From assembly GCF_007748175.1 (NCBI RefSeq), contig NZ_CP037422.1:6588334-6652333 (forward strand): a stretch of 64,000 bases of DNA. The letters run 5' to 3'. A program made the translations under genes and the position numbers. Origin of the DNA: Gimesia aquarii (GTDB taxonomy: Bacteria; Planctomycetota; Planctomycetia; Planctomycetales; Planctomycetaceae). Positions 10,314-56,910 of this stretch are shown in pieces. The notes under the pieces were generated by a model. That model saw only the letters and a program-made list of their open reading frames with translations. It was not told the origin of the DNA and did no database searches. Within the stretch, counting starts at the first letter, position 1. Each line of letters begins with the position of its first letter.

Positions 10314-10325
10314 GTGTTAAAACGG

Positions 10326-11402
10326 ATGTCGGAAACGAATCATCATACAAATGACTCTCATGAATTTGAGATTACTCAGGAATCGATCGATAAGCTTAGT
10401 TCTGCCTATCAACAGATTCATGGGCAGATGTCGAAAGTTATCGTTGGACAGGATCAGGTCGTAGAACAACTCCTGATTGCCCTTTTTAGTCGAGGTCATT
10501 GTTTGCTTGAAGGTGTCCCCGGCCTGGCTAAAACACTGATGGTCAGTACTTTGGCACAAAGTCTGTCGATGTCGTTTAGCCGCATCCAATTCACCCCGGA
10601 CTTGATGCCCGCAGATATCACAGGAACAGACGTCTTACAGGAAAATCGAGAAACAGGCGAACGGGAGTTTCGATTCATCCCAGGCCCCTTATTTCATAAT
10701 GTTATTCTGGCAGACGAAATTAACCGCACACCTCCGAAGACACAGGCTGCCTTACTGGAGGCCATGCAGGAGCACCAAGTCAGTGTCGGCCAGACGCGGC
10801 ACGTACTCAGTGATCCGTTTTTTGTATTAGCTACGCAAAATCCCATCGAACAGGAAGGTACCTATTCGTTGCCGGAAGCTCAACAAGACCGCTTTATGTT
10901 TAAAGTCTATGTACGATATCCCACATTTGAAGAAGAACGCCAAATAGCCAGACAAACAACTTCTGCGACAAATGAAAAAATTGAGCATGTATTAAATGCA
11001 GTAGATGTTCTGGAGATCCAAAAAATCGTCCGTCAAGTTCCTGTTTCAGACCACGTGATTGATTATGCTCTGGCGCTAGTCAGGCAAACCAGAGTGAATG
11101 AGCCAGGTACTCCCGATTTCATCAACGAATGGCTCAGCTGGGGTGCCGGGCCCCGCGCTGTACAAAATCTGTTATTAGGCGGAAAAACAAGAGCATTACT
11201 GAATGGTCATACGCACGTCTCTACTGAAGATATCAGCGCTTTAGCGGCACCTGTATTACGACATCGAATCGTAACGAACTTCTCAGCCGAGTCGGAAGGA
11301 ATTTCTTCAGATCGTGTAATTGAGAGACTGATTGACGAGACTCCGTCTAAGGAAGGCGAACTGACGAGTGACCCAAGATTACAGAAAATATTTGCTGCCT
11401 GA
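10326..11402 (+). CDS. MoxR family AAA+ ATPase
   Basis: About 358 residues from the ATG at 10326. An in-frame GTG at 10314 would add four residues, but AAAGG just upstream of that GTG is better spaced for the ATG. Counting from the GTG, Walker A is GVPGLAKT (residues 67-74) and Walker B is VILADE (130-135), followed by the MoxR-typical [20 protein letters not shown] and the sensor phrase [20 protein letters not shown]. MoxR ATPases act as chaperones that assemble or activate partner complexes, usually VWA-domain proteins. That fits the downstream order DUF58, BatA-like, VWA protein. The reading frame overlaps the next gene by 35 bases, which suggests translational coupling. Cytoplasmic. Very secure family assignment; client unknown. 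Confidence 0.95.
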
Positions 11403-12279
11403 AGCAATTTCCCGAATTTCTCGATTGGAAATTCGGGCGCGTTCAATTGTCGAGGGATTCCTGTCTGGATTGCACCGTAGTCCTTTTTTTGGTCAATCGG
11501 TGGAATTTGCTCAACACCGTGAGTACGCACCTGGAGATGATGCACGGAATATTGACTGGAAGGTCTGGTCAAAAACAGATAAATACTACATCAAACAGTA
11601 TGAAGAGGATACTAATTTAAGAACAACATTATTAGTTGATGTCAGTGAATCGATGCGGTTTGGTACAGGACCTCTCAACAAATATGAATATGGCTGTACG
11701 GCAGCCGCCGCTCTGGCATATCTCCTGTTGAAGCAACAGGATGCCGTTGGTTTGATTACATTTGATGATGCCATTCGTTCCAAAGTCCAGGCATTAAGTA
11801 AGCGAAACCACTTAAATTCCCTGCTCACTGCATTGGCTACAGAAAAACCTGCTCAAAAAACTGACATTTTCGACGTATTAAAAGAGGTCGCCGAAACTCG
11901 GTCGAAAAAAGGAACCATCGTTCTCATTTCTGACCTGTTTGTGAACCGGGAAAGCCTGTTTAAAGGCTTAAGACTATTACAATATCGGGGACACGATGTG
12001 ATGCTCTTGCATATTCTGGATGACGAGGAACTCGATTTCAGTTATGCAGGCACAACTCGCTTTGAAGGGATGGAAGAGACCGGCGAACTTGTATGTGATC
12101 CTCGTTCTTTAAGAGAAGGATACCTCGACGCAATGCATGATTTTTTAAATGAAATCAGAAGGCGTTGTGCCAAAAATAAATTTGACTATCAAACAATACG
12201 AACCAGTGAATATTTAGACGCAGCTTTAGCACATTATCTCAACCATCGAATTGGTATGCAACAATCCATTAGACAATAA
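11368..12279 (+). CDS. DUF58 domain protein (VWA-like, MoxR partner)
   Basis: 303 residues with a GTG start inside the end of the MoxR gene; GGAAGG lies 11 bases upstream. The family signature is present: [20 protein letters not shown] (residues 50-69), followed by a VWA-like domain whose MIDAS motif is DVSES (residues 91-95). DUF58 proteins are nearly always adjacent to MoxR and are thought to be its VWA-type partner in bacterial aerotolerance (Bat) and similar envelope loci. No membrane segment is obvious, so it is probably cytoplasmic. The 35-base out-of-frame overlap with the MoxR gene implies coordinated stoichiometry. The start could be slightly further in, but the region [18 protein letters not shown] is typical of the family N-terminus, so the chosen start is reasonable. 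Confidence 0.93.
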
Positions 12280-12338
12280 GCACTCCCTCAACTTCAGACC
12301 TTAACAAGCTTTAACTCAAGTAACTGATAACGCATCTT

Positions 12339-14606
12339 ATGGAAACATGGTTAACACAACATTTTGTGAATTCCACGCTGGTCTACGCCGGTGCGTTGAT
12401 GGTTGCTGCGCCTATTATCATTCATTTAATTAATCGCTTTCAATACAAACGTGTTCAATTTGCAGCAATGGAATTTCTGTTGCAAAGCCAGCAGACGAAT
12501 CAAAGGCGAGTATTGCTCGAACAATTACTGCTCTTGTTGCTACGAATTCTGCTGATTATCTGCCTGTTATTATTGATTGCGCGACTGATTCTCGATCCTA
12601 ATCAATTATCGATGTTTCGAGGTGCGAAATCACATCACGTGATCTTACTGGATGATAGTGGATCCATGCAAAATGTCTGGGGAGAGCAGACTGCCTTTAA
12701 CGAAGGCCTACAGGTGATCCGTAAAATAGTAGCAGAAGGAACAAATCGCCCAGATACAGAAAAATTGTCTCTGATCGTGCTCTCTCGTGCCAATGCACCG
12801 CTTTTTTTACAAAGAGACATTAATGAAGAACTCATCAATGAATTGGACGCAAAGCTGACTAATCTTAATTGTTCACACCAGAGCCTCGATCTGAATCAAG
12901 GTTTAGAGGCGGCTACGGAATTGCTCAATGAAGACCGTGCTGTGATCCAAACCCTCCATTTGATTTCTGACTTCAGAAAGTCAGACTGGCAGGATAAAAA
13001 GGGCATTGCCTCCACCATCGAAGATTTAAGTAATGATGATATCGCAATAAACTTGATTAAAACGGTTCCGGATTCTCAACCGAATCTGGCAATTACTGAG
13101 CTTTCTGGCGCAACCGAAATGGCTGCCGTTGATATTCCTCTGCGCTTAAAAGTCAGCATTAAAAATTTTGGCGATCAGGTCGTTGAGGATGTGCGTGTTG
13201 CCGCATTTGTTGATAATAATAAGCTACCGATGAGTATTGTCTTTGATAAAATAGAAGCGGGAAGTGAGATCTCCCAAGACTTTGACGTTGTTTTTAATAA
13301 GCCCCATTTACATCAAGTCAATGTCAGTCTGACAAATGATGTACTTGCCGGCGATAATGAACGATTTCTGGCCATTAATGTCAAACCTTCAAATCCCGTA
13401 TTAATCATCGATGGTAATCCCTCAGGTAACGAGTGGATGTATATTCAAACGGCGATTGCTCCCGATATGGCGACCACTGGTTTTGCGCCGTCTGTTGAAA
13501 GCGTAGACTACCTTCGCAGACATGCCTTAGATCAATTTAAAAACATTTATCTGCTGAATGTTGCCGAACTTCCACTCGATGCGATCACCCCTTTAGAAGA
13601 GTTTGTCTCAACGGGTGGAGGCTTAATCTGGTTCGTTGGCCCTTCAATCCAGCCAGCCTTTTATAACGATAAGCTATATAAAAATGGGAACGGACTCTTT
13701 CCTGCCCCGCTAGAACCATCGCCTCGAGAGTTACCGGCGCGAGAAACCAATTCCACTGTGGATATGCAAGTCAGTGATCACCCTCTCTTTTCCGTATTTG
13801 CAGGTCAGGACAATCCACTCATTGAAGCAGTCACAATTTCAAAATATTTCCCTCTTTCACAGAGATGGCTGCAAACAAAATCACAAAATGTATCAGGCGT
13901 TAATGTGATCGCCACGCTTAGAAATCAAGAACCATTTATCATTGAACATCGGTTTGGTAAAGGGCGAATTATCACTTGTCTAACATCAGCAGGTCCCTTA
14001 CTTTCGAATGAAGGCGAACCCTGGAACTCCTGGGCACTCAACCCGAGCTATATTGTGTTTCAATTGGAACTGCAAAAATACCTGGTCCAATCTCAATCCC
14101 ACGAACAAGCACAAATTGTTGGCGATCCGATTGCATTTTCTCTCGACGCCTCGTTGTACTCTGATGAGATTCAAATCCAAACACCCACTTCCGAGGGCGA
14201 AAGAACCATCAGGCTCATAGCATCTCCTAAACAAATCACAGATGCGGCACAGAATGGTTTGTTACAGTTAATAACCACTTACCGAGAAACAGATCAACCC
14301 GGCGTCTATTCCGTTCAATTGAAACGACAAGATCAAACAGTTGAACAAAAAATGTACGCGTATAACTTCCCAGTGACAGAAAGTAATCTGGAGTTGACAG
14401 CTTCGGATGACTTAATCAAGCAGCTTGGAAATAATCCACAAATCCAAATTCAGGAACCGGGAGAGTTCCAATGGATTCAAGGACAAGAAGCAGGCCGGGA
14501 AATTACGAATACTATTTTAATACTCCTGTTTCTTTTACTAATTTGTGAACAGCTATTGGCCTATAGGTTAAGCTATCACCCTAAAGTAGTGAGTGCTGTT
14601 GCATGA
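12339..14606 (+). CDS. BatA-like membrane protein with VWA and glutamine-amidotransferase-like domains (locus 1)
   Basis: 755 residues. Residues 1-85 are the BatA N-terminal domain: two membrane helices (about 13-31 and 62-84) around the conserved HLINRFQYKRVQFAAMEFLL. A VWA domain follows with an intact metal-ion-dependent adhesion motif, DDSGS (105-109). Next come a beta-sandwich segment and, near residue 353, a class I glutamine-amidotransferase-like fold starting with VLIIDGNPSGNEW; no catalytic Cys-His-Glu triad is evident. A final helix lies at about 724-744. The VWA domain is probably periplasmic. The stop overlaps the next start (ATGA), so the two proteins are translationally coupled. 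It is paralogous to the gene at 54624. The role is probably a membrane complex activated by the upstream MoxR ATPase; this is inferred from context. Confidence 0.9.
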   Translation: METWLTQHFVNSTLVYAGALMVAAPIIIHLINRFQYKRVQFAAMEFLLQSQQTNQRRVLLEQLLLLLLRILLIICLLLLIARLILDPNQLSMFRGAKSHHVILLDDSGSMQNVWGEQTAFNEGLQVIRKIVAEGTNRPDTEKLSLIVLSRANAPLFLQRDINEELINELDAKLTNLNCSHQSLDLNQGLEAATELLNEDRAVIQTLHLISDFRKSDWQDKKGIASTIEDLSNDDIAINLIKTVPDSQPNLAITELSGATEMAAVDIPLRLKVSIKNFGDQVVEDVRVAAFVDNNKLPMSIVFDKIEAGSEISQDFDVVFNKPHLHQVNVSLTNDVLAGDNERFLAINVKPSNPVLIIDGNPSGNEWMYIQTAIAPDMATTGFAPSVESVDYLRRHALDQFKNIYLLNVAELPLDAITPLEEFVSTGGGLIWFVGPSIQPAFYNDKLYKNGNGLFPAPLEPSPRELPARETNSTVDMQVSDHPLFSVFAGQDNPLIEAVTISKYFPLSQRWLQTKSQNVSGVNVIATLRNQEPFIIEHRFGKGRIITCLTSAGPLLSNEGEPWNSWALNPSYIVFQLELQKYLVQSQSHEQAQIVGDPIAFSLDASLYSDEIQIQTPTSEGERTIRLIASPKQITDAAQNGLLQLITTYRETDQPGVYSVQLKRQDQTVEQKMYAYNFPVTESNLELTASDDLIKQLGNNPQIQIQEPGEFQWIQGQEAGREITNTILILLFLLLICEQLLAYRLSYHPKVVSAVA

Positions 14607-17050
14607 GTTTTTTTTCTCTCATTTCTGATTCATTGATCTTGGCCGTAGACGAAACAACTGCGTTTCGTTCGATCGAGTATGATACGCCCGAATCAGGCTG
14701 GGGGTGGATGCTGCTACTTTCTGGCCTGATTTTTGTTTTGATTCTCTCTTTCCGGACTTCCTGGAAAGACTCCTTCCAGCTCTCTCTTCCATGGCGTTGC
14801 TGGTTAATTGGATTAAGACTCAGCGTATTACTTGCTTTGATGATCATCGTGTTCAATCCACATGAACGAACTCAGAAAATGTCATTTCGTCCATCTCGAG
14901 TAGCGGTATTGATTGATACTTCTCTCTCGATGCGGCATCCGAATCAAAATGTGCCCCTGAATTCAAGCTCTCCCGCGAATCGCATGGTTTCCAGTCGTAT
15001 GCAGGCTGTGGAAAAACTACTGGCTGAATCACCATTAATTACAGACCTGCAAAAGAAGCATCAAGTCAGCGTTTACACATTCGATCAAAAATTAACTGGG
15101 CCACATCATGTCTTTCAAAGAGAGCAAGCTACAAAAATAGCCAATAACGAAAATGCCGAAACTAAAACGATATCCCAAATCGATTGGAACAGCCTCTTAC
15201 AACCTCAAGGACTAGAGACAAGATTGGGAGAATTACTGGGACAGTTAATTCGAGAAATCAATGGGTCTACTCTTTCTGGGATCATTATTGCCACAGATGG
15301 TGCTTCGAACGCAGGTACTGATTTACTTAGTGCTAATGAAACAGCAAAGGAGTCAAAGGTTCGCCTGATCACATTCGGCGTCGGGAGTCCCACGAAACCA
15401 GCGAATGTACAAGTCTCAAAAATTATTGCTCCCACAGATGTGCAATTTGGTGACAGTTTCGAAATCACTGCGCTCCTGCAAGCAGTCGGAATGCCGGGCA
15501 AAAACATTACAATTGAATTATTGAAAAAACTAGAGGGAGAAGCACAGCCCACAGTCGTCGAGTCGCGCGATATTCTCCTGCCCACAGAAGAAGGGCTTCC
15601 TCTTGATGTGAAATTTGAACGCATCCCCAGTGAAGAAGGCGAAATCAGTTATGTGATTCGAGTGCGGGGAAATCAACTGGTACAAGATGCCAATACAATG
15701 GACAATGAGCTGGAACATACAGTCAATGTTTTCAGTCGTCCAACAAAAGTGCTGATCATAGCCGGCGGGCCAATGCGTGACTACCGTTTTGCACGCACGA
15801 TGCTCTTTCGACATCCTTCTATCAAGTCAGATGTCTGGTTACAAACAGCGTCTCCTGGTGTCTCTCAGGATGCGGACCAGATGTTATTTGAATTCCCAGA
15901 ACGAACTGCATTGTTTGAGTATGACGTGATACTTGCCTTCGATGTGAATTGGGAACTGCTTTCACAAGAACAGATGCAAACATTGAATGAATGGGTTGCA
16001 ACCGGAGGCGGGGGAATTGCTCTGGTTGCTGGCGATGTATACACACCTAAGCTTGCCCGGGATATCGAACGATTCGAACCAATTCTCGACCTATATCCCG
16101 TAGCAATCAATTCGTTTGTGCGTGATTACCTTGATGAAGAAGCGACTCAAATCCGCAGAATTGAGTGGACTCAAGCAGGCCTGGATATCGGTTTTCTCAT
16201 GTTGACCGATGATCCGGCGACGTCTAAACAGTTATGGGAAAATTTCCCTGGTATGTACCGGTGCTATCCTTCTAATGGTGCCAAAGCTGCCGCTACCGTC
16301 TATGCCTATTTCCCTGACCCCAAAACACAGACTGAATTCGGTTTCCCAATATTGATGGCATCCCAATATTACGGCGAAGGTCGTTGCTTTTATCTGGGTA
16401 GCCCGGAACTTTGGCGTCTACGATCGATTGAAGAAGATTACTATGATCGTTTCTGGACGAAGCTTATCCGAAATATCGGGCAAGGGCGTACCAAAAGAGG
16501 TACCAAACGAGGCACATTAGTTTTAGAACGAGACGAATACTTACTTGGTCAAACCGTTTCTGTGCGTGCGAGATTACTTAATCCTGAATTTAAACCTTTG
16601 ATTCAGGAGTCTGTACCGATGGAAGTTACAGATCCACGCGGAAGACTTTTAGTTCCTAACTTATTATTAATGCATGATCGAAACCGACCGGGAGAGTATT
16701 TTACCAGTTTCCGCGCGAGTCTTGCAGGGAAATATCGCTTCAAAATCATCGTTCCCAATTCGAAAGGACAAACTGTTGAAGGAAACCTCTCAGTTTTATT
16801 GCCCCGGCTGGAAGATGAATCTCTGAGCCAGAATATAAAAGGACTCAAAGAATTGTCCCTCGATACGGGCGGCACTTATCTTGCTATTGGCGAAGCAGCA
16901 CAGATTCCGGCACTCTTACCTGATCTAGGGGAAGAGTTTTTAGTAGACGAACGCCTGAAAACCCTCTGGGATCAACAATGGGTTTTCTTTCTGTTAACCG
17001 GACTTTTGGCAACAGAGTGGCTTACTAGAAAGCTATTTAAATTGTCATAA
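14603..17050 (+). CDS. VWA / glutamine-amidotransferase-like membrane protein (locus 1)
   Basis: 815 residues. There are two membrane helices near residues 32-50 and 64-86, then a VWA domain with MIDAS motif DTSLS (105-109) and a long extracytoplasmic region. A GATase1-like Rossmann fold begins near residue 382 with VLIIAGGPMRDYRFARTML and contains the phrase LNEWVATGGGGIALVAG. The C-terminus ends in a membrane helix with the pattern LWDQQWVFFLLTG followed by EWLTRKL. The protein at 56911 ends with the same pattern (LWDHWFILVLIMG, then EWAIRKL), so the two are paralogues. Start and stop overlaps (ATGA) couple it to the BatA-like gene. The function of this family is not established; it probably forms a complex with its neighbours in the cytoplasmic membrane. 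Confidence 0.85.
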   Translation: MSFFSLISDSLILAVDETTAFRSIEYDTPESGWGWMLLLSGLIFVLILSFRTSWKDSFQLSLPWRCWLIGLRLSVLLALMIIVFNPHERTQKMSFRPSRVAVLIDTSLSMRHPNQNVPLNSSSPANRMVSSRMQAVEKLLAESPLITDLQKKHQVSVYTFDQKLTGPHHVFQREQATKIANNENAETKTISQIDWNSLLQPQGLETRLGELLGQLIREINGSTLSGIIIATDGASNAGTDLLSANETAKESKVRLITFGVGSPTKPANVQVSKIIAPTDVQFGDSFEITALLQAVGMPGKNITIELLKKLEGEAQPTVVESRDILLPTEEGLPLDVKFERIPSEEGEISYVIRVRGNQLVQDANTMDNELEHTVNVFSRPTKVLIIAGGPMRDYRFARTMLFRHPSIKSDVWLQTASPGVSQDADQMLFEFPERTALFEYDVILAFDVNWELLSQEQMQTLNEWVATGGGGIALVAGDVYTPKLARDIERFEPILDLYPVAINSFVRDYLDEEATQIRRIEWTQAGLDIGFLMLTDDPATSKQLWENFPGMYRCYPSNGAKAAATVYAYFPDPKTQTEFGFPILMASQYYGEGRCFYLGSPELWRLRSIEEDYYDRFWTKLIRNIGQGRTKRGTKRGTLVLERDEYLLGQTVSVRARLLNPEFKPLIQESVPMEVTDPRGRLLVPNLLLMHDRNRPGEYFTSFRASLAGKYRFKIIVPNSKGQTVEGNLSVLLPRLEDESLSQNIKGLKELSLDTGGTYLAIGEAAQIPALLPDLGEEFLVDERLKTLWDQQWVFFLLTGLLATEWLTRKLFKLS

Positions 17051-17110
17051 ATAATACTCGTTATAAAAGAAATTTAGTTTAACTCAATCACGTCAGCGTT
17101 AAGTAAAAGA

Positions 17111-19594
17111 ATGAACGAACCGTCTAATTCATCAATACCCCATGAAATCACAAACCTGTTGAACAGGTTAAATAAGAAAATACGTAGATACATTCTGCTT
17201 GAAGGAACCGCCAGACTGCTGGCAGTCATTGGTCTCATCTTTTGGTTCAGCTTTATTGTCGATTGGGTTTACTTTCAACTCAGCCATCTTGAACTACCCA
17301 TCTGGTTTCGTGCTTCCTACATTCTCATTTCACTGACTGCGATCCTCGTTCTGTCTGGCAGCTTCATCTTCTTGCGGCTCATGAAAAGAATGAAACGAAA
17401 AGCATTGGCTCTGGTATTGGAAAAACGTTTTCCGGAACTAAATGATCGATTGGCTACAGCGATCGAATTGAATGAAGACAACAGACCACAAAACGCTTTA
17501 ACGCAAGCGATGTTGGCAAGAACAGTGAAAGAAGTTGCGCAAGGCAGCCAGCAACTTCCATTGGAAGATGTATTTGATAAACGCCCGTTAAGGCGCGCTG
17601 TTTTCGGGGCCTTTGCGTTATTTATTTCGATTCTTAGCCTGGCGGTCATTAACCAACCTGCCATGGCTCGTTGGGCTAAGGGGTATCTCGAACTGCAAAG
17701 CGATTACTGGAATCGTGAGACTGGTCTCATTGTGAAAGTGATTGCTCAACCCGGTGATCGAATCAAAGAGTTCCAGGATCTTTCGTATAAACATGGTCTT
17801 GGTAATGACCTGACACTGTTGGTAGAGACCGTTGACAGCACCAAAGCCCCCGAACGTGTGCAGTTGACGTACCGCATGCAGAACGGTCGTGGGGGTGGAC
17901 GAACCGTAATGTCGCGCATGGGTGAAGGTCGATTTAAACATACCATTACTGATTTATTGGATGGGATTCAGGTCTGGGTCTCCGGAAACGACTTTACAAA
18001 CCCTGAGCCCTACGTTGTTGAAGTTGTTGAAACTCCTGTTCTCGATCAGATTCAATTGGATTGTTATTACCCCAAATACACAGGATTAAACCAGGTTGAT
18101 TCTGATACTGGTAAGCCACTCGCAGACATGCAAAATGTTCAGGGAACACAAATCGCTCTGCCGATTAATACAAAATTTAATATGATTTCGACCGCCAATA
18201 AACCGATCACTCGGTACTCATTTGAAACTGACCAATTGAAGCTCCAGTTAGAACGAAAAACAAAAGATTCGACTACTGAACCCAGTAATTTTCTGGCATG
18301 GAAAAACTCAGACGGAACAGTGATAAATCAGATCGAACTCAATCGATCACACGTTGCTCAGATGATAGACACCAATGGACTCCATTTTCGAATTCCGTTT
18401 GCTTTAACTACTGAAGTGAAACACGAAACCCCTTCTTTGAAAACAAACTCGATTCCGAAAAATATTCCTCTGCTAGCAGATCAACCCATTCGTATCTATT
18501 TGGAAGACGAAGATGGTTTACTGGTAACAGAACCAATTCGACTAAGTATCAATGGCATCGTTGATCAGGCCCCCAAAGTAGACACACAACTAACAGGAAT
18601 CGGTAAGTCGGTTACCCGTAAAGCAATGATTCCGTTGGAGGGGGTCATTACTGATGATTATGGAATTCAGTCTGCTCATTTTGATTTTCTCGTCGATCAG
18701 GAAAAAGACTTCAGGCCGCGTCCTTTCCGTAAGAAGCCAACAGGAAGACCAAAAGAATTTACCCTGCAAAGAAGCGAAAAAAATCGCTGGGAGCGGTTTG
18801 AAGTATTACCACTTGACTTAAAAGTCGGACAAAAATTGAGTCTTACTGTTAAAGCCAAAGACGCCGATAACCTAAGTGGACCACATCAAACTCATGGAGA
18901 AATCTATCACTTTGAAATTGTTACTGATGAAGAGCTACTTTCCCTCCTTTACTCTAAAGAATTAAACCTACGAAAGCGATTTGAGCAAATCTATAAAGAA
19001 GTAAGGCAAACGCGCGATGATCTAAGTCAACGAATCGAACAACTACAACACTCTCAAACAATCAAAGAAAAACAAAAACAAGGACAATCAGACCCCGGAT
19101 GGCAAGCAACACTTGTAGAAATCAGTAATGCGGTTGCTACTTCTGCTGATCGCTCTCTGTATGGGACTCGAAAAAATGCGACTGAGACCGCTTCGGTTGT
19201 CGAGTCATTTCATGATATTCGAGCAGAGCTAGTTAACAATGGTGTTGCAACCACACAAATTCTGGGTCGCATAGATGATAAAATTCTTGAGCCTCTTACC
19301 ATCATCCACCTACAGGATTTCCCTGACGTTGATCAGCAATTAGGACTATTTCGCCTCGCAATCGAAAAAGAAGATAGTCCGTTGCAAGAAATTCAGACAA
19401 GTATTGAGCTTTTGGACGCCATGTTGGTCCGTATGCAGAACGTTCTGAATGAAATGCAGGACTTGTTGGAGTTCCATGAAGCCATTGAGATGCTGAAGAA
19501 TCTGATCGAAAAGGAGAAAGAACTGACAGAAGACACAAAAAAGTTTCGCAAAAACAAACTTTTAGATCGTCTCAAAGGGCTAGGATTGGACTAA
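17111..19594 (+). CDS. Large membrane-anchored coiled-coil protein, DUF4175-like (locus 1)
   Basis: 827 residues. The N-terminal 100 residues contain an amphipathic helix (NRLNKKIRR) and two membrane helices, followed by RFPELNDRLATAIEL. That phrase is matched by TLNERLTSVLEL in the protein at 59629, so the two are paralogues. The next 450 residues are predicted beta-rich and extracytoplasmic, including a third hydrophobic segment near 160-180 and the phrase VITDDYGIQSAHF. The C-terminal 180 residues are a long charged coiled coil. The protein ends without the WGxLP tail found in the other paralogue, and that tail occurs instead on the gene at 21537. The resemblance to DUF4175 is my inference. 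It sits 60 bases after the VWA gene and is presumably in the same operon. Confidence 0.75.
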   Translation: MNEPSNSSIPHEITNLLNRLNKKIRRYILLEGTARLLAVIGLIFWFSFIVDWVYFQLSHLELPIWFRASYILISLTAILVLSGSFIFLRLMKRMKRKALALVLEKRFPELNDRLATAIELNEDNRPQNALTQAMLARTVKEVAQGSQQLPLEDVFDKRPLRRAVFGAFALFISILSLAVINQPAMARWAKGYLELQSDYWNRETGLIVKVIAQPGDRIKEFQDLSYKHGLGNDLTLLVETVDSTKAPERVQLTYRMQNGRGGGRTVMSRMGEGRFKHTITDLLDGIQVWVSGNDFTNPEPYVVEVVETPVLDQIQLDCYYPKYTGLNQVDSDTGKPLADMQNVQGTQIALPINTKFNMISTANKPITRYSFETDQLKLQLERKTKDSTTEPSNFLAWKNSDGTVINQIELNRSHVAQMIDTNGLHFRIPFALTTEVKHETPSLKTNSIPKNIPLLADQPIRIYLEDEDGLLVTEPIRLSINGIVDQAPKVDTQLTGIGKSVTRKAMIPLEGVITDDYGIQSAHFDFLVDQEKDFRPRPFRKKPTGRPKEFTLQRSEKNRWERFEVLPLDLKVGQKLSLTVKAKDADNLSGPHQTHGEIYHFEIVTDEELLSLLYSKELNLRKRFEQIYKEVRQTRDDLSQRIEQLQHSQTIKEKQKQGQSDPGWQATLVEISNAVATSADRSLYGTRKNATETASVVESFHDIRAELVNNGVATTQILGRIDDKILEPLTIIHLQDFPDVDQQLGLFRLAIEKEDSPLQEIQTSIELLDAMLVRMQNVLNEMQDLLEFHEAIEMLKNLIEKEKELTEDTKKFRKNKLLDRLKGLGLD

Positions 19595-19809: not shown

Positions 19810-21516
19810 ATGTTGAATCGTCCTCAGATCGCCGTTGTACTAATGGCTCTCGTTATGAGTATCGTCACTCCGAATTTGTGCATTGCTCAGGATAAGAATC
19901 CGCAAGCAAATGCCAGTAATTCAAGCGGCCAAGATCAGAAACTCTCGGATAAACAAGAGGCGATCTCTCAACAGTTTAAACGATTTGAAACAACCCTGCA
20001 CGATCTAGGCGAATATATGAAAAAGACAGACCCTGCCCGGGCTGATCTTCTTTTTCGTGCGTTTGGTCAAAGTAAACAAAAACAAATGACAGTGGAAATG
20101 CAACAAGTTCTACAGATGTTGCAAAATGGTCAATTAGGTGATGCTGTAGAACGGCAGGAAAATCTTGTCAAAAACATGCAAGCATTACTAGCGCTCCTTC
20201 AAAGTGAAGACAGAATGAGCGAAGTGGAAAAAGAGAAGAAGCGTATTCAGGACCTTTTAAAAGATGTCAATCGCCTGTTAGGACAGGAAAAAGATGTCAG
20301 AGCTGCAACGGAACGTGGTGGTAAACAAGCTGATTTAAAAAAGAAACAGAAAAAAACTGCAAACAACGCTCAGAAGTTGATTGAAAAAATCGATAAGCAA
20401 GACACAGAAAAAAACCGTTCACAAAAATCCGAAAATGATCAACGAAATAAGCAGTCACAAAAGAGTGAAGAACAGCAAAAATCCCAGAATGGTAAATCAA
20501 GCTCCGACTCTAAAAATTCTCAAAAGTCAAAATCGAAAGGGAATTCTTCTCAACAAGGAAAGTCAACACCTAAGAAGCAGAGTTCATCACAACAGCAACA
20601 ATCTCAACAAGGAAAGCAATCAAAGTCTCAACAACAGCAGGGACAAGAAAGCCAATCGCAGCAAGGAAAAAATCAGCAGTCTCAAAGTCAACAAGAGAAA
20701 CAGACTCCAGGCCGAGAGCAAATAGAACAAGCTCGACAAGAGATGGAAAAAGCGATTGAGGAACTGGAAAAAAAACAAAAAGAAGCAGCATCACAACATC
20801 AGGATGATGCGATTCGTAAATTAGCAGAAGCAAAAGAAAAACTGGAGGAAATGCTACGTCAGCTCCGTGAAGAGGAGCGAGAGCTTTTGTTGGCCGCAAT
20901 GGAAGCCAGACTGCAAAAGATTCTGGCACAACAGAAACGCATTTATTCTGGTACGCTCTCTATCGGGCAGGTCCCTGAAAATGAACGGAACAGTCGCCAT
21001 ACAGCTAGAGCCGTCCAACTGGCACGCGAAGAAAATGTAATCGGCTTAGAAGTGGAGAAGGCAATGTTGCTATTAAGAGATGAAGGATCATCCGTTGCAT
21101 TCAGTGAAGCCTTATCAGAAGTAAGGGAAGACGTTCAAACTGTTGCATACCGTTTAAATCGAACGCAGGTCGGAGAACTGACTCAGGAAATTGAAAAGGA
21201 TATTATCAGTTCGTTGGAAGAAATGATTGAAGCACTTCAGAAAGAAATGGAAAAGTCTGAAGAGCAAAAACAACAGCAGCAGCAACAACAGCAAGGCTCT
21301 CCCAAAGACAAATCTCTGGTGGAACTGTTGGCAGAAATTAAAATGCTGCGTTCTTTACAGCTTCGTGTCAACAAGCGTACTCGCAGGATTGAAAAAATGG
21401 CTTTGGAAAAAGACGCAAACCAGGCAGAAATTCTTGAGCAACTGCAGCAGTTATCCGATCGCCAAACCCGAATACAAAATGCTACTTATATTCTGGCAAC
21501 AGGCAAGAATAAATAA
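19810..21516 (+). CDS. Secreted Gln/Ser/Lys-rich coiled-coil protein
   Basis: 568 residues. The first 26 residues are a Sec signal peptide ([18 protein letters not shown], cleavage near CIAQDK). Residues about 55-195 are helical and charged. Residues about 195-300 are extremely rich in Gln, Ser and Lys with little hydrophobic content, probably disordered. Next comes a long helical segment with the phrase [20 protein letters not shown], and near residue 490 there is a run of eight glutamines. The composition suggests an extended periplasmic rod or linker. It lies between the DUF4175-like and 371-residue genes of the same operon and is 20 bases from the latter. The single large protein of locus 2 is also Gln/Ser-rich in its C-terminal third, so this gene may supply that part in locus 1. 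No enzymatic motif is visible; function unknown. Confidence 0.8.
20405..20715 (+). repeat. Low-complexity Gln/Ser/Lys-coding tract
   Basis: A region of A-rich codons (mainly CAA, CAG, TCA, AAA) encoding a largely Gln/Ser/Lys linker of about 100 residues inside the coiled-coil gene. A second shorter tract at about 21268-21295 encodes eight consecutive Gln using mixed CAA/CAG codons, which argues against recent replication-slippage expansion of one codon. Confidence 0.6.
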
Positions 21517-21536: not shown

Positions 21537-22652
21537 ATGATCGATTCATATCAATTTCTCCAGAAACAACAAGCATCCAATCTTAATCTGCGGGTAGTAT
21601 CACTAGTCGCTTTGGTTTTTGTATTGATAACCTCTGTCTCTCTACCAGCGAAAGAAAAACCTAAGAAAACACCAGAAATCAATCCCGAATTACATGCAGC
21701 CCCCACTACCTCTGAAATCAAAATGCATTTACAGAATTGGGCTGCGGAGCAAAAAGTAAAAAAACCAGACCAGTTAAAGAATGTTGCAGGCTTATTAACA
21801 AAGCTGGAGTCTCCACTTTCGAGTGAAGAAAAGCTGGAGCTGGCAATACAGGTTTTTTCTGAAATGAATCTGGAATCGAAACAACTAATCCAGGCATACC
21901 AAATTTCAGACCGACTCCCTCAACTTTCCAGCCATCCATTATTGGTCGAAGGTCAGGCAGAATCGTTTTACCTGTCAAATATTCGTTATTACGTCGCAAG
22001 GAATCTAACACAATTTCGAATGATTGATCAAGCTCTGGACATGTTCAATTCCATCAATCCGAAGCTTGTAATAGATCCCGCGGGTTATTTGTTTTTCAAA
22101 GCTGTTTGTGAGCACCATTTGTTGCAGAAAGAAGAATGTGAGAAGTCTTTGAAATTACTTCTAAACCATACAGAAAACGTTCCTCAAAGATATACACAGG
22201 TTGCCACACTCATGCAGGCAGATCTGGCAGACCTTAAAGAAGAAAGTTTGGATGAAATCTCGCGAAAAATGAGTGATGTTGAACGCAGACTTGAATTAGG
22301 AAACTCAGGAGAAAAAGTTCAAAAAGTTGAAGACGATATTATTGCCTCTCTGGATAAACTCATAAAACAAATGGAAGATCAGGCAAAAAGTGCATCCTCT
22401 TCCTCATCAGGCGCAGGTCAGTCCAGATCACCCAGTTCAGGCTCAAATGAAAGCCGTGTGAAAGGGCAGACCGCCCCTGGAGAGATCGACAAAAAAAAGT
22501 TATCAAACAACGGTGGCTGGGGACAGCTTCCTCCTAAGAAACAAGCTTCCGCCAAGAACATTATTAACCGCAATTTCCCCTCACACTACCGCAAGGCAAT
22601 TGAAAAATATTTCAAGAAATTAGCAACTCGAAAAGCAAGTTCAAGCAATTAA
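21537..22652 (+). CDS. Membrane-anchored helical protein with WGxLP C-terminal motif
   Basis: 371 residues. One membrane helix near the N-terminus (about residues 20-38, LVALVFVLITSVSLPA) leaves the rest outside the cytoplasm. Residues 60-260 are helical and may form TPR-like repeats (for example KPDQLKNVAGLLTKLESPLS, MFNSINPKLVIDPAGYLFFK). A Ser-rich linker follows at about 285-305. The final 45 residues carry the motif WGQLP, then Y, I, YF and A at fixed spacing, ending in a Ser-rich tail. The same motif, in the same ungapped register, ends the 1336-residue protein at 59629. The gene is 20 bases downstream of the Gln-rich gene, so it is likely co-transcribed. The function is unknown; the shared tail suggests it partners the VWA complex. 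Confidence 0.78.
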   Translation: MIDSYQFLQKQQASNLNLRVVSLVALVFVLITSVSLPAKEKPKKTPEINPELHAAPTTSEIKMHLQNWAAEQKVKKPDQLKNVAGLLTKLESPLSSEEKLELAIQVFSEMNLESKQLIQAYQISDRLPQLSSHPLLVEGQAESFYLSNIRYYVARNLTQFRMIDQALDMFNSINPKLVIDPAGYLFFKAVCEHHLLQKEECEKSLKLLLNHTENVPQRYTQVATLMQADLADLKEESLDEISRKMSDVERRLELGNSGEKVQKVEDDIIASLDKLIKQMEDQAKSASSSSSGAGQSRSPSSGSNESRVKGQTAPGEIDKKKLSNNGGWGQLPPKKQASAKNIINRNFPSHYRKAIEKYFKKLATRKASSSN

Positions 22653-22711: not shown

Positions 22712-23878
22712 ATGCATTCTCTGCTTGTAGCTTCAATGTCAATACTGCTTGCCGTTTCACCTGAAGTCGAATTGACTTCTTTAAATGGAGATTCTGTATC
22801 AGGAAATCTACAGTCATTGAGCAAATCCACCATCAATCTGAAACAGGGAGAAACAGCAAAAGAGATTTCACTTTCAGGTGTACTCAACATTCGATTTCCC
22901 AAAAACCGTTTTCAACGCAGCCTGCAATCACCAATTATAGTCAGGTTAACTGATGGATCAAAATTTCCTGTCCAGTCTTTACAAAGCAATGAACGACAGA
23001 CCAAAGTAAGTGGAGAGCTAACTGGGACATTAATCTTACCAGCAAAGAATATCTCCTCAATTCGCTTTGAGCCACTGAATTCAAATATTCGAGAAGCCTG
23101 GGAAAAGCTAGCGAGAGGCAAAAATAGTAAAGATCTGCTCATCGTTCAGAAGGAAAACGTACTTGATTTTATTGATGGTGTGATCGGTTCTGTGACAGAT
23201 GAAAAAATTCAATTTTTTACAGGAGATGATGAAGTCGCCGTCAATCGCAAGCGAGTTTTTGGAATCATTTATGCGAGAGAACCACTTCCAGAAACGTCGT
23301 CATTTTGTACGATCCGATTAACGAATAATGGATTGATCCAGACGTCGTCAATTACATATGCCGATAACGAATTTAAAGCAACATTACTAAACGGCGTTCA
23401 AACTAAGTTTGTCACAGAATCGATTGCGAATCTGGATTTCAGCCAAGGAAAAGTATGTTACCTATCAGATCTGGAACCACGTAATATAGAATACACCCCC
23501 TTCTTCGACACTATCTGGAAATATCGCAAAGACAAACATCGTGATGGAGGCCCACTTCGTCTGGATGGTAAAGAGTATACCCGCGGACTTTACATCCATT
23601 CAAAGACACTCCTGCAATATCGCATTAGAAATCAATATCGGAATTTTCGGGCTGTCATGGGTATTGATGATTCTGTTCCCGGAATTGGATTTGTCTATGT
23701 CGAAATCAAAGGCGATGGCCGAATACTTTACTCCGGAAATGTGCGCAGTGCAGATCCCCCAGTAGAGTTGAATCTCGACATTCGCGGGGTGCGTGATTTT
23801 GATATTTTAGTTGATTTTGGTGATAACTTGGAAATTTGTGATCATCTCGATTTATGCGATGCGCGCTTCATTAAATGA
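22712..23878 (+). CDS. Secreted NPCBM-domain protein (putative carbohydrate-binding)
   Basis: 388 residues. A short N-terminal hydrophobic signal (residues 1-17) is followed by a beta-rich region (about 18-220) with the phrase LTSLNGDSVSGNLQSLS, typical of planctomycete secreted proteins with small SH3-like repeats. Residues about 240-388 form an NPCBM/NEW2 domain, recognisable from LRLDGKEYTRGLYIHSKTLL, FRAVMGIDDSVPGIGFVYVE and the ending HLDLCDARFI. NPCBM domains bind carbohydrate and are often attached to glycoside hydrolases or stand alone in planctomycetes. AGAGG lies 6 bases before the start. It precedes the protease array by 66 bases on the same strand, so it may belong to the same envelope-related regulon; this is inference from position. 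Confidence 0.85.
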   Translation: MHSLLVASMSILLAVSPEVELTSLNGDSVSGNLQSLSKSTINLKQGETAKEISLSGVLNIRFPKNRFQRSLQSPIIVRLTDGSKFPVQSLQSNERQTKVSGELTGTLILPAKNISSIRFEPLNSNIREAWEKLARGKNSKDLLIVQKENVLDFIDGVIGSVTDEKIQFFTGDDEVAVNRKRVFGIIYAREPLPETSSFCTIRLTNNGLIQTSSITYADNEFKATLLNGVQTKFVTESIANLDFSQGKVCYLSDLEPRNIEYTPFFDTIWKYRKDKHRDGGPLRLDGKEYTRGLYIHSKTLLQYRIRNQYRNFRAVMGIDDSVPGIGFVYVEIKGDGRILYSGNVRSADPPVELNLDIRGVRDFDILVDFGDNLEICDHLDLCDARFIK

Positions 23879-23944: not shown

Positions 23945-25702
23945 ATGCAGAGAAAATTCGTCTGTACTCAGATAGTAACTAGCATTCTGTTGATTTTGTT
24001 GCTGCCTGCTTCTTCACAGTCAGCAGTTGTCGATCCAGCAGTCTTGGCAGCGCAAAAACAGCGTATTGATGTCATTAAAGCAGTCTCTCCTTCAGTCGTT
24101 GCCATCTTTGGTGGATCTGGACAAGGAGGAGGTTCGGGCGTGCTCGTTACTCCAGATGGATATGCTCTGACAAACTTTCACGTTGTTTCCGGAGCTGGTA
24201 ACTTCATGAAGTGTGGTCTCAACGATGGCAAACTCTATGATGCTGTTATTGTGAGTATTGATCCCACTGGTGATGTCGCAATGATCAGGTTACTCGGGCG
24301 TAATGACTTTCCCATAGCAAAATTGGGAAATAGTGATACGGTCAAAGTTGGGGACTGGGCTTATGCCATGGGAAACCCATTTTTATTGGCAACTGATTTT
24401 CAACCGACAATTACCTATGGAATTGTCAGTGGAGTACATCGATATCAATATCCCGCTGGCACATTTTTAGAATATACAGATTGTATTCAAGTTGATTCAT
24501 CAATCAATCCAGGAAACTCGGGAGGACCTCTGTTTAACGCGCGTGGTGAATTAATCGGAATTAATGGACGCGGCTCATTTGAAAAACGAGGACGAGTTAA
24601 TTCAGGTGCGGGATACGCCATTTCTATTAATCAGATCAAACATTTCTGGGATCATCTCAAGAGTGGTCGCATCGTAGACCATGCCGCTTTGGGAGCAACT
24701 GTTTCCACGGGTGCTGACTCTACGATTGATGTTTCTGAGATTCTGGAAGAATCAGACGTTTATCGAAAAGGTCTGCAGTTGGGTGATGAGATTGTATCTT
24801 TTGCAGGCCGCCCTATGCGTAGTGTCAACCAATTTAAAAATATCTTAGGAATCTATCCTGCAGGCTGGACTTTGCCGCTTGTCTATCGACGGGATGAGAA
24901 AAAGACGAAAATCTATGTGCGCCTTCAAAATTTGCATAGCGCTTCGGAACTACAGGAACAAGCAGGACAAAAAAAAGTGATTCCTGATAAGGCCCCCACA
25001 CCTGAAGACAAAAAAGCTCCTCGGATTCCTAATCCACATGCAAAACCAACTGTGACACCACCTCCAGAGAAATATAAACATCTCTACGTTCCTAAAACCG
25101 GGTTTGCAAATTATTACTTTAATCAACAACACCAAGACCGATTATTACAAACCTTAACGGATCGTAGTGATTTTTCTGACCGTAAAGGAACTTGGACTCT
25201 GACCGGCAAACAGATTGATGGCGATGAATTTACACTCACGTTAGCTGATAAAGGCGTGGGCTTTGAAATTGGCGATGAGGTGTTCCTGCAATCACTGGAG
25301 TCCGGAATCCTAGTGGATGAACCACCTGGAACTGGTGGCCTGTTGGCAGCTTTACATCACTTCCGGTTATTACTATCCGGTCAGACGAAGCGCTTCACCG
25401 ACTTTTATTACTTGGGTAGTGAACCCCTTGACGGAAAAAATGAAATGGTTGATGTGTTGGTCGGCACACTAACAGGTGCCATTTCCCGCTGGTACTTCAG
25501 TAAATCAGACCTTTCTCTGCGAGGCTTTGACTTTTATCTCACAGAAAATTCAGAAGTTTGTACAATTCGTTTTGAGCAATTTCAAACTCTCAATGGACAA
25601 GATTTCCCAAGCGAATTAGATGTCTTTATTGGAAATCGTCCCGTCATGAAATTAAAAATTGAACGGTTGAAACTAGAAACTTTAGAGGACATGAAAAAAT
25701 AG
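23945..25702 (+). CDS. Trypsin-like serine protease with PDZ domain (HtrA/DegP-like), catalytically complete
   Basis: 585 residues. A signal peptide spans about residues 1-27. The trypsin-like domain has an intact triad: His79 (in TNFHVV), Asp110 (in DPTGDVAMI) and Ser192 (in NPGNSGGPL). A PDZ domain follows at about 245-330 (YRKGLQLGDEIVSFAGRPM). A Pro-rich linker then leads to an additional C-terminal domain of about 190 residues that I do not recognise; it is beta-rich and contains PGTGGLLAALHHFRLLLS. Typical HtrA proteins are 400-500 residues with one or two PDZ domains, so the C-terminal domain is an addition. AAAGGA lies 6 bases before the start. It is the first gene of a tandem array of three relatives, of which only this one can be an active S1C peptidase. 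It probably acts in the periplasm on misfolded envelope proteins. Confidence 0.92.
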   Translation: MQRKFVCTQIVTSILLILLLPASSQSAVVDPAVLAAQKQRIDVIKAVSPSVVAIFGGSGQGGGSGVLVTPDGYALTNFHVVSGAGNFMKCGLNDGKLYDAVIVSIDPTGDVAMIRLLGRNDFPIAKLGNSDTVKVGDWAYAMGNPFLLATDFQPTITYGIVSGVHRYQYPAGTFLEYTDCIQVDSSINPGNSGGPLFNARGELIGINGRGSFEKRGRVNSGAGYAISINQIKHFWDHLKSGRIVDHAALGATVSTGADSTIDVSEILEESDVYRKGLQLGDEIVSFAGRPMRSVNQFKNILGIYPAGWTLPLVYRRDEKKTKIYVRLQNLHSASELQEQAGQKKVIPDKAPTPEDKKAPRIPNPHAKPTVTPPPEKYKHLYVPKTGFANYYFNQQHQDRLLQTLTDRSDFSDRKGTWTLTGKQIDGDEFTLTLADKGVGFEIGDEVFLQSLESGILVDEPPGTGGLLAALHHFRLLLSGQTKRFTDFYYLGSEPLDGKNEMVDVLVGTLTGAISRWYFSKSDLSLRGFDFYLTENSEVCTIRFEQFQTLNGQDFPSELDVFIGNRPVMKLKIERLKLETLEDMKK

Positions 25703-25731
25703 ATTTCGTTAGAGATGAAAGTTAATTTTCA

Positions 25732-26781
25732 GTGAAAAAAGAGAACATAGTAAAAGTCATTTTCGTTTGTTTATGTCTAATAGGTTCTTGCTTGATAGTC
25801 CCGCTTACAGCCAAGGCCTCCTCACAATCAACGATCAATCATGCTTTACCGCGATTGGTAAAAATATTTGGTGCCGGCGGTGTAAAGAATCTATATGCAT
25901 ATAGCACTGGTTTTCTGGTATCTCCTCAAGGACATATTGCTACTATTTGGAGTCCTGTTCTTGACACTGATCGTCTTTCAGTTGTCCTCAACGATGGACG
26001 AAGATTTGATGCAGAAGTGCTTGGAGCCGAACCATATCTTGATTTGGCAATAATCAAATTAAAAACAGAACGTGAACTGAATCTGCCCTATTTCGACTTT
26101 CGTGAAAAAGTAATCGCTGGTCCAGGTACACGAATACTGGGTTTTAGTAACATGTTTCGTGTTGCTACAGGGGATGAACCAGTATCTGTATTGCATGGAG
26201 TGATTGAAGCTCGAACGGAATTACCTCGAAGAAGAGGTGCTTTCGAACTCGCTTACTCAGGTGATGTCTATGTTGTCGATGCCATTACCAACAACCCGGG
26301 CGCTGCTGGAGGGGCCATTTTGACTTATGATGGCAAACTATTAGGAATGATCGGAAAACAGGTTCGAAATGCCAAAACCAACACTTGGGTCAATTACTCT
26401 CTCCCAATTGATGTATTAAGTAAAAGTATCGAGCAAATTATTACCGGCAAATTTGAATCTAGCGAAAATCAAAAAAAAACAGTAACACAAGCACCAGAAC
26501 GATATCGCCCTGTCGACTTCGGAATGGTAATGGTACCCGATGTCCTGTATCGCACTCCAGCTTATATTGATAGTGTCCTTCCTGGTTCGTTAGTCGCTAA
26601 AGCGGGTCTGAAACCTGATGACCTGGTTGTTTTTGTAAATGATGAACTCGTTAAATCGTGTAAGACACTTAATGCTGAACTAGGAAAGCTTGAAGCTGGC
26701 GATTTACTACGTCTGGTTGTTCGTCGTAAGAATCAATTGGTCTCTATTGAATTCCAAGTCCCACCTGAAAAAAATAACTAA
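25732..26781 (+). CDS. HtrA-like pseudoprotease with PDZ domain (His and Ser lost)
   Basis: 349 residues from a GTG start at 25732. An N-terminal signal is present; LIGSC around residue 20 resembles a lipobox, though an AKAS site at 27-30 would suit signal peptidase I equally well. The trypsin-like domain aligns directly with the upstream protease. The His79 position is Ser74 (GHIATIWSPV), Asp104 is retained (EPYLDLAIIKL), and the nucleophile motif NPGNSGGPL reads NPGAAGGAI, with Ala192 in place of Ser. A C-terminal PDZ domain (about 255-345) includes AKAGLKPDDLVVFVNDELVK. The fold is intact and there is no frameshift, so loss of catalysis seems selected rather than decay. It may act as a substrate-binding partner or regulator of the neighbouring protease. 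Confidence 0.88.
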   Translation: MKKENIVKVIFVCLCLIGSCLIVPLTAKASSQSTINHALPRLVKIFGAGGVKNLYAYSTGFLVSPQGHIATIWSPVLDTDRLSVVLNDGRRFDAEVLGAEPYLDLAIIKLKTERELNLPYFDFREKVIAGPGTRILGFSNMFRVATGDEPVSVLHGVIEARTELPRRRGAFELAYSGDVYVVDAITNNPGAAGGAILTYDGKLLGMIGKQVRNAKTNTWVNYSLPIDVLSKSIEQIITGKFESSENQKKTVTQAPERYRPVDFGMVMVPDVLYRTPAYIDSVLPGSLVAKAGLKPDDLVVFVNDELVKSCKTLNAELGKLEAGDLLRLVVRRKNQLVSIEFQVPPEKNN

Positions 26782-26798
26782 TATACAATCGATAAATT

Positions 26799-28793
26799 AT
26801 GACTCAGACAATCACAAAATTATTTCTCACTTTGACAACGATTATCAGCGTGCAGCTTCAAGCTGTTCATGGTCAGTCTTCTCAACCTGACCTGGAATTA
26901 CTGGAAGAACGAGCCTTCAAACAAGCTGCCGCGTTTATGAATCCCTCTATCGTCAGAATTGAAACTGTCGGTGGGCAAGAACGCGTAGGAAAAATTGTGA
27001 CCGGTACCGGCCCCACTTCCGGTGTCATTGTTAGCAAAGATGGTTTGATTATATCCAGTGCCTTCAATTTTATTGGAAAACCAACTTCAATATTAGTGAC
27101 TCTGCCAGATGAACGCCGCTTTCCAGCACAGATTGTCGCGAGTGACCATTTGAAGATGCTGACTTTATTGAAAATCGAAGCACAAAACCTTCCGGTCCCT
27201 TTGGCAGTCCCTGAAAATGAAATCCAAGTAGGTATGTGGTCGATTGCCCTAGGACGAACATTTAATTTGGAACAACCAAGTGTATCTGTCGGAATTGTGA
27301 GTGCCTTGGAGAGAATCTGGGGAAAAGCCATTCAGACCGATGCAAAAATTTCCCCGGTCAATTACGGAGGTCCACTGGTAGACATTAATGGTCGCCTGAT
27401 GGGCATTCTGGTCCCGCTCTCTCCTGGAGCAACCGGAGAAACAGCGGGCGTTGAATGGTACGACTCAGGAATCGGATTTGCGATTCCCATACAAGATGTA
27501 CTAAAAATTATTCCTCGACTGAATACCGGAAAAGATCTCTATCCTGGATTATTAGGCATCACATTGAGTGGAAAGGGAAATCTGTCTACTGATATGAAAC
27601 TGGATCGCGTTCGCTATGGAAGCCCTGCTCAAGAAGCTGGAATTAAATCTGGCGATGTTTTGACAAAGCTGGACGGCCACACCGTCAGTATGCATTCCCA
27701 AGTAAAACATGTCTTGATGAATAAGTATGCTGGCGAATCAGTTAGCCTCACAGTTACTCGAACCGGCTCAAAAGAACCTCTAACTCTTAAAGCAACCTTG
27801 GTAAAAAAACTAGTTCCATTTGAATCAGGATTTTTAGGAATACTCCCCCAACGAGAATTCAACGATCCATCAGAAAGAGGAGTACGTGTCCGGTATGTGT
27901 TTTCAAAATCTCCCGCTGAACTAGCAGGCTTGAAATTAAATGACCAGATTTTAGAATTTAATCGGCAGAAGGTTACCAATTCCAAATCACTGGCATCAAT
28001 GGTCAACCATTTACGTCCTGGTGATTCTGCAGAATTATTGCTGTTACGTGAAGAACAACCGTTAACAGTTAAAGTCACTTTACAATCGATTCCGCATACT
28101 GTCGAAAATACTTTGCCAAGCCAGATCGTTTCATCTAAAACTGCCCTCAAAAACAAACCAGCTTTCAAAAAAGGGCACTTTAAAGATACGCTCCCCGGCG
28201 ATGAACAAAAATTTTGGGCTTATGTCCCTGAGGACTATAATCCCGATAACCAATATGGTCTGATGGTATGGATTCACCCTCACGGAAATACGATGGAATC
28301 CAATATTTTAAAGAGTTGGAAGAGTATTTGTGAGCAACGTGGAATCATCATTGTTGGTCCGACAGCACAAGATGTGATTCGTTGGAATCGAGGTGAATCC
28401 GAGTTTGTCAAAGAAGTCGTTGAATCAATGCTGGCTCAATATTCTATTGATCCAAAACGCATTTTTCTGCTTAGCCACACTGACGGGAGTGATTTCGCCT
28501 TCCATCTAGTATTTAAGTATCGAGAATTCTTTCGAGGAATTGCCGTTTCAGAATCATCCATAAAAAGTAAGCCTCCTGAAACCGACCCTGATTTCCCACT
28601 CAGCATCTACTTTGTCTTAAATGCCCAAAACCCCTTTAATCAGTTCCTAAAACCGCAAATAGAAATCTTACGCAAAATGAACTATCCAACGGTATTCCAA
28701 ATGATTAAGAGTAAGAATCAAGCTGGGGAATATCTTGACAAACCATTTTTAGAAGAAATTGGTCGCTGGGCAGACAGCCTGGACCGAATTTAA
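26799..28793 (+). CDS. HtrA-like pseudoprotease with two PDZ domains and C-terminal alpha/beta-hydrolase-like domain
   Basis: 664 residues. A Sec signal ends near VHGQ (residue 26). The trypsin-like domain (about 40-235) has lost all three catalytic residues: the His position is Phe89 (GLIISSAFNF), the Asp position is Met120 (DHLKMLTLL) and the Ser position is Tyr189 (SPVNYGGPL). Two PDZ domains follow: the first at about 245-335 (YGSPAQEAGIKSGDVLTKLD), the second at about 345-430 (SPAELAGLKLNDQILEFNRQ). Residues 455-664 resemble the poly-hydroxybutyrate-depolymerase or feruloyl-esterase type alpha/beta hydrolase fold (VPEDYNPDNQYGLMVWIHPH, IDPKRIFLLSHTDGSDFAFH). The expected nucleophile motif GxSxG reads SHTDG, with Thr at the Ser position, so this domain may be inactive as well. 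It lies 17 bases after the previous gene and is surely in the same operon. Confidence 0.87.
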   Translation: MTQTITKLFLTLTTIISVQLQAVHGQSSQPDLELLEERAFKQAAAFMNPSIVRIETVGGQERVGKIVTGTGPTSGVIVSKDGLIISSAFNFIGKPTSILVTLPDERRFPAQIVASDHLKMLTLLKIEAQNLPVPLAVPENEIQVGMWSIALGRTFNLEQPSVSVGIVSALERIWGKAIQTDAKISPVNYGGPLVDINGRLMGILVPLSPGATGETAGVEWYDSGIGFAIPIQDVLKIIPRLNTGKDLYPGLLGITLSGKGNLSTDMKLDRVRYGSPAQEAGIKSGDVLTKLDGHTVSMHSQVKHVLMNKYAGESVSLTVTRTGSKEPLTLKATLVKKLVPFESGFLGILPQREFNDPSERGVRVRYVFSKSPAELAGLKLNDQILEFNRQKVTNSKSLASMVNHLRPGDSAELLLLREEQPLTVKVTLQSIPHTVENTLPSQIVSSKTALKNKPAFKKGHFKDTLPGDEQKFWAYVPEDYNPDNQYGLMVWIHPHGNTMESNILKSWKSICEQRGIIIVGPTAQDVIRWNRGESEFVKEVVESMLAQYSIDPKRIFLLSHTDGSDFAFHLVFKYREFFRGIAVSESSIKSKPPETDPDFPLSIYFVLNAQNPFNQFLKPQIEILRKMNYPTVFQMIKSKNQAGEYLDKPFLEEIGRWADSLDRI

Positions 28794-38950: not shown

Positions 38951-39207
38951 AATCGAAGGTCGATTCCATATTGCGGGAGCAAGAAAAGTTTGACTGAAAA
39001 TGATACCTTTTCTTGAGGGAACGAATACACAACGAATCCCCCACACCCGTCCTCTAAAAGCTGAAAGAATGAGAGTCTTCCGGCCTTAAAAGCAGACAGT
39101 CACATATGTTCACATTTCATCAAAATCAAGTTCTCATTACGTCCCCTTTGACACTGTATATCATACGTCGTATTTTGGGCACATTAAAGAACGAATCTCA
39201 AAGCTGA

Positions 39208-56894: not shown

Positions 56895-56910
56895 TAAGAT
56901 CTCTACTAAA

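Follow-up and report, generated by a model that had tools for sequence, protein, structure and literature searches.

HtrA trimers relay activation from one subunit to the next, and HtrA proteases have been described mainly as homo-oligomers. Active and inactive protease paralogues are combined in one assembly in ClpP/ClpR and similar systems. Within the HtrA fold, MamO is needed for MamE-dependent proteolysis although the triad of MamO is not (PMC4794232). Here we describe three adjacent genes, P1, P2 and P3, in a 64,000-nucleotide stretch of the genome of Gimesia aquarii (contig NZ_CP037422.1, positions 6,588,334 to 6,652,333; the window), together with their relatives in other planctomycetes. 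We consider it fairly probable that P2 and P3 are dedicated inactive HtrA-fold partners of the HtrA-type protease P1, likely joined with it in a mixed envelope assembly and tied to a MoxR/DUF58/BatA-VWA gene cluster. The three open reading frames lie as the initial annotation placed them, in the order P1, P2, P3 with intergenic gaps of 29 and 17 bases:

23945..25702, + strand: P1, HtrA/Do-type serine protease with the triad, Trypsin_2, a weak PDZ match and a C-terminal domain at about residues 375-585
25732..26781, + strand: P2, pseudoprotease with a trypsin fold and one PDZ, Ala at the nucleophile and Asp kept
26799..28793, + strand: P3, pseudoprotease with a trypsin fold, two PDZ and a C-terminal alpha/beta-hydrolase-like domain at about residues 458-664
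28170..28790, + strand: hydrolase-like end of P3, a probable pseudo-hydrolase, in which Thr561 occupies the nucleophile-elbow position

All three proteins score above the Pfam cut-off for Trypsin_2 (27.6 bits), with 111.3 for P1, 58.9 for P2 and 67.2 for P3, and a PDZ-type match is retained in each, as had been proposed; P3 has two such stretches, and the match of P1 falls under the Pfam cut-off (20.9 versus 23.2). The HtrA/Do (S1C) architecture of a trypsin-like domain followed by PDZ is found in P2 and P3, and in P1 with a PDZ below cut-off. Against TIGR02037, the whole-protein model of the Do family serine endopeptidases (NCBIfam cut-off 416.2 bits), P1, P2 and P3 reach 218.9, 85.8 and 216.5 bits, all below the cut-off. 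The start of P1 resembles a signal peptide by eye, and P1 is probably exported.

The His-Asp-Ser triad that marks an active HtrA/Do protease is found in P1 and in neither P2 nor P3. In P1 it consists of His79, Asp110 and Ser192, exactly the residues first annotated, and it is complete in 96 of 98 aligned P1 rows, or 96 of the 96 that are readable, L095 and L097 being without that part of the protein. P2 has Ala at the nucleophile (NNPGAAGG) and keeps the Asp, again as annotated. Its His position is indeed not His, and the residue named there, Ser74, seems to be one too early: the equivalent in this genome is probably Pro75, because the stretch from the conserved Thr to the His helix is one residue longer in the P2 family (T-V-W-S-H-V-L-D) than in DegP (T-N-N-H-V-V-D). 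Many fused P2s (below), which read T-W-x-H with no extra residue, favour Pro75 as well. This assignment rests on sequence, the structure models having given no residue-level superposition, and the alignments disagree, an ungapped MAFFT alignment leading to Ser. Across 113 P2s the Pro75 column holds His in 79, Pro in 8 and other residues in 26; Asp is kept in 69, and Ser stands at the nucleophile in none, where Ala, Gly, Gln, Tyr, Pro and others are seen. Since His occupies its column in 79 of the 113, most P2s have lost Ser for certain and have likely kept His. As judged from the alignment, the typical P2 has lost its Ser and often retains His and Asp; in the P2s of Gimesia the loss extends further.

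In P3 all three residues are replaced, as the initial annotation had stated: Phe89 stands at the His position, Met at the Asp and Tyr189 at the nucleophile (SPVNYGG). Phe89 follows the ungapped alignment and was adopted here, a gapped HMMER alignment giving Asn90 as the alternative. Phe occupies the His position in 73 of 83 P3 rows and Tyr the Ser position in 79 of 83, the rest being Ser (L177 and L178), Trp (L073) and a gap (L065). Among the 80 trio P3s readable at the nucleophile there are 79 Tyr, one Trp and no Ser; row L051, an unrelated hydrolase, was excluded from the final P3 counts. L177 and L178 are ordinary HtrAs with Ser from outside the trio that give good scores with the profiles of P2 and P3, and they are possible active relatives of the P2/P3 line.

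Both P1 and P3 extend beyond the protease core. P1 ends in a domain of about 210 residues without a known family: the window copy has no Pfam match, a weak DUF4292 match appears in 2 of 23 members, and no credible match to a solved structure was found (best E 0.08); a LolA/RseB-like fold is conceivable, as a guess. The end of P3 resembles polyhydroxybutyrate (PHB)-depolymerase-like and other alpha/beta hydrolases, with 41.7 bits against NCBIfam NF050058 (below its cut-off of 150) and Pfam hydrolase families in a minority of the 21 P3 members scanned; it does not appear among the structure matches listed, which the protease domain fills. Ser is found at the hydrolase nucleophile column in 8 of the 58 trio P3s long enough to show that column. 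Judging by these residues, the hydrolase-like domain is probably a second dead enzyme in one protein.

In five loci (L169, L170, L172, L173 and L176) a single reading frame runs from P1 into P2 without an intervening stop, and no second signal peptide was seen by eye. A database was searched with the P2 portion of the fused L170 protein, with lengths limited to 0.55-1.75 times that of the whole protein. The 8000 best candidates yielded 35 proteins, of which 23 (P0121-P0143, 770-1057 residues) consist of P1 followed by P2, 22 of them under a strict criterion; in P0140 the P1 match is broken into two. The five loci and the 23 proteins overlap in part, coming partly from the same genomes; P0142, for one, lies on a contig equal in length to that of L173. 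The live half is N-terminal and the dead half C-terminal. The first half carries NPGNSGG in 23 of 23 fused proteins. At the nucleophile column of the P2 half, Gln is found 11 times, His 7 times, Pro and Tyr twice each, Phe once and Ser never. Given these fusions, P1 and P2 are likely to act together directly.

Gene order was followed in 116 loci, 113 of them with P2 (L165, L177 and L178 have none and stand outside the locus counts); the P1, P2 and P3 profiles were built from loci found through P2, so that the adjacency counts start from P2. The initial annotation had suggested comparing the tandem order across planctomycetes, and that order is conserved. P1 lies upstream of P2 within 1500 bases in 91 of the 103 loci with enough sequence, P3 lies downstream of P2 within the same distance in 71 of 93, and both neighbours are present in 66 of 86.

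The trio is an old planctomycete feature. In a survey of 292 genomes drawn from the Planctomycetota, P2 was found in 57 and P3 in 58, with both in 57, P3 alone in one and P2 alone in none. The P2 count is what remains of 59 matches after G173 and G241, ordinary HtrAs with Ser, were removed, and the line for P3 was set after a gap was seen between E values of 7e-71 and 9e-59. P2 occurs in 16 families of this survey, to which the families f3 and f4 add two; among a set of 40 relatives, no P2-grade match was found in f2 (4 genomes), f6 (1 genome) or genome G033 of f7. The C-terminal domain of P1 occurs in 36 of the 292 genomes, all with P2 and P3, and since only one of these lies outside the class of the window, the domain is either younger or too diverged elsewhere. 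In two genomes (G114 and G099) none of the three genes adjoins another, and in three more (G299, G259 and G283) P3 lies apart from P1-P2; each of the five genomes still has all three genes. Contig ends do not explain the separation, because the contigs of G299, G283 and G099 extend kilobases beyond the expected neighbour site, and the sequences of G114 and G259 consist of one contig each.

A tree of 70 trypsin domains resolves P1, P2 and P3 as one clade each (support 100/99, 100/98 and 100/99), with P2 and P3 as sisters (97/94) and 11 other HtrA domains of the same genome outside all three clades. Long branches may help to draw P2 and P3 together, and a single clade of P1, P2 and P3, as expected from one tandem duplication, has support of 31/0 and is neither shown nor rejected. 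The ratio of nonsynonymous to synonymous substitution rates (dN/dS), proposed in the initial annotation as a check on the inactive copies, is low, a sign of purifying selection. To the nearest genome, whose proteins are 96-98.5% identical, it is 0.07-0.12 for P1, 0.085-0.095 for P2 and 0.13-0.20 for P3; most pairwise dS values are saturated or not computable, so these ratios rest on that genome, and for P1 on part of the gene. The frames of P2 and P3 are open, with one internal TGA in P2 of the fragmentary genome G021. The view that the inactive copies are not decaying is borne out by these low ratios and by dead sites kept across distant lineages.

Together, the conserved order, the P1-P2 fusions and the co-retention of unlinked genes support the proposal that the inactive copies are partners of the active protease. 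Fusions and co-retention make a working P1-P2 partnership likely; what points to a role for P3 is gene order, co-retention and selection. In the history we propose, an old duplication would have been followed by loss of catalysis in the P2/P3 line before the trio-carrying planctomycete families separated, the HtrA core and PDZ domains being kept for binding. The most likely outcome would be a mixed HtrA assembly of P1, P2 and P3 in the cell envelope. There P2 would touch P1 directly and gate or support it, perhaps by way of the loops through which neighbours in HtrA trimers activate each other; because such trimers relay activation between subunits, a dead neighbour could exert allosteric control over P1. 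P3 has two PDZ domains and a probably dead hydrolase-like domain and may supply substrate binding or recruitment, and the trio would serve the MoxR/DUF58/BatA-VWA machinery of its own gene cluster. A more far-reaching version, to which we give only tentative credence, is an obligately mixed HtrA machine across the phylum, with one catalytic subunit and two that lack catalysis combined in a fixed ratio (for instance as a single P1-P2-P3 trimer). The dead subunits would replace two of three active sites and carry control and recruitment, the machine would be coupled to the MoxR/VWA apparatus, and the principle would have arisen at least twice in planctomycetes.

Several observations weigh against a dedicated partnership. 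Gene order may reflect co-transcription only, and the genomes in which P2 and P3 co-occur are not phylogenetically independent. A tree with P1 and P2 as sisters is not rejected by the approximately unbiased test (p-AU 0.397), so catalysis may have been lost more than once. A genome of the same genus (G015, 74% complete) is without a P2-grade match, and no P3 fusion turned up, no search aimed at P3 fusions having been made. Within 1500 bases of P2, P1 is missing from 12 of 103 loci and P3 from 22 of the 93 with enough sequence downstream; several loci of Schlesneria-titled records lack P3. In five loci (L053, L054, L056, L057 and L068) a different long trypsin precedes P2, so P2 is not tied to P1 alone, and a change of partner is possible there; the two of these proteases that were scanned (L053 and L057) have an intact triad and HEAT repeats.

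These exceptions, and the position of all three genes within a larger conserved cluster, would also suit P2 and P3 acting in the pathway of P1 without contact, as free binding proteins or chaperones of the envelope, or as PDZ scaffolds serving the MoxR/VWA machinery, with only operon and ancestor in common with P1. We think this rather unlikely, since P1 and P2, being fused in some genomes, are likely to act together directly; for P3 the alternative stands. It is improbable that P2 and P3 became small-ligand or metal binders like MamO, their adjacency to P1 being a duplication relic. MamO itself is a precedent (PMC4794232), and the nearly fixed dead site of P3 (SPxNYGG) fits a new binding role of the pocket, but co-retention after unlinking speaks against a mere relic. 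Catalysis through other residues, such as Tyr189 of P3 or its hydrolase domain, could be read from the near fixation of that Tyr; it is very improbable, as His and Asp of P3 are replaced too, the P2 site varies, and the hydrolase nucleophile column seldom holds Ser. That P2 and P3 are decaying copies, as lost active-site residues might suggest, is hardly credible and was rejected on the low dN/dS, the open frames and the spread of P2 over families.

Upstream of the trio, on the same strand, lie the other members of the cluster:

22712..23878, + strand: NPCBM-domain protein, directly upstream of P1; upstream in 75 of 87 loci tested
21537..22652, + strand: conserved cluster gene with no Pfam family above cut-off; upstream of P1 in 68 of 79 loci
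19810..21516, + strand: Gln-rich protein, conserved cluster gene with no Pfam family; upstream of P1 in 59 of 68 loci
17111..19594, + strand: conserved cluster gene with no Pfam family; upstream of P1 in 40 of 47 loci
10314..17050, + strand: MoxR-type AAA+ ATPase, DUF58, BatA/VWA and VWA genes, the head of the same-strand cluster

The last VWA gene has a VWA match of 23.0 bits, just under the Pfam cut-off of 23.8, and related VWA, MoxR or DUF58 genes lie close to the trio in several relatives. What Bat proteins do is itself described as unsettled (PMC3557215). Further BatA-, VWA- and 17111-like genes form a second set at 54516-63639 of the window, strongly diverged, with 22-25% identity to the genes at 12339-19594. 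On the minus strand, 28860-35543 and 35540-39046 encode proteins of 2227 and 1168 residues with no Pfam match, relatives of which adjoin the trio in several loci. Promoter-like sites (13 versus 17.0 in shuffled sequence) and terminator-like sites (10 versus 8.3) are about as frequent as in the shuffles.

The same genome holds a second adjacent HtrA pair, protease and pseudoprotease, at G000:C1:4873020-4875282 (locus L149, 5021-6100 and 6134-7282). Its first gene encodes a trypsin with GGDSGG; in the second a PDZ-like stretch splits two trypsin halves, with Cys at the Ser site and no His by eye, and a relative of this gene is present in 27 of the 40 genomes. The 14 second-pair regions fetched comprise eight tandem pairs, two clear fusions (L190 and L197), three diverged fused relatives and one second gene alone; P0144 and P0145 are further fusions of this pair.

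A search of the open-access literature found no report of the trio, which does not show its absence from print. A survey of microbial PDZ proteins records many such proteins in planctomycetes (PMC6411480). Term searches found neither "pseudoprotease" nor "planctomycet" in the available text of a 2024 HtrA review (PMC11642142), and no occurrence of "hetero" in that of a paper on Deg5/Deg8 (PMC3640471). If our interpretation is true, a conserved protease with two inactive paralogues would be a natural mixed HtrA, the natural P1-P2 fusions would offer a ready-made 1:1 construct for pseudoprotease control of an active protease, and the MoxR/VWA cluster would gain a possible envelope protease output.

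The trio differs from DegP, DegQ and DegS in that P2 and P3 are without the triad and all three proteins fall below the TIGR02037 cut-off. It may be likened to ClpP/ClpR in pairing an active protease with inactive paralogues. Upstream of the trio, the same strand carries MoxR, DUF58, BatA and VWA genes, as in a Bat-type (Bacteroides aerotolerance) cluster, to which an NPCBM gene and the protease trio are added here. The logic proposed for the trio has its closest known counterpart, and a tested precedent, in MamE/MamO, where an active HtrA protease and an HtrA-fold pseudoprotease likewise come from one gene region (PMC4794232). The likeness does not extend to family membership, as NCBIfam asks for scores over 800 bits and those found are 114 for P1 against MamE, 40.2 for P2 against MamO and 120.2 for P3 against MamE. 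MamO has a C-terminal transporter domain, whereas Pfam found none in P2 or P3 (P2 has trypsin and PDZ only, and some P3 members add hydrolase families), and the planctomycete system is further set apart by its three genes, its P1-P2 fusions and the lineages that carry it.

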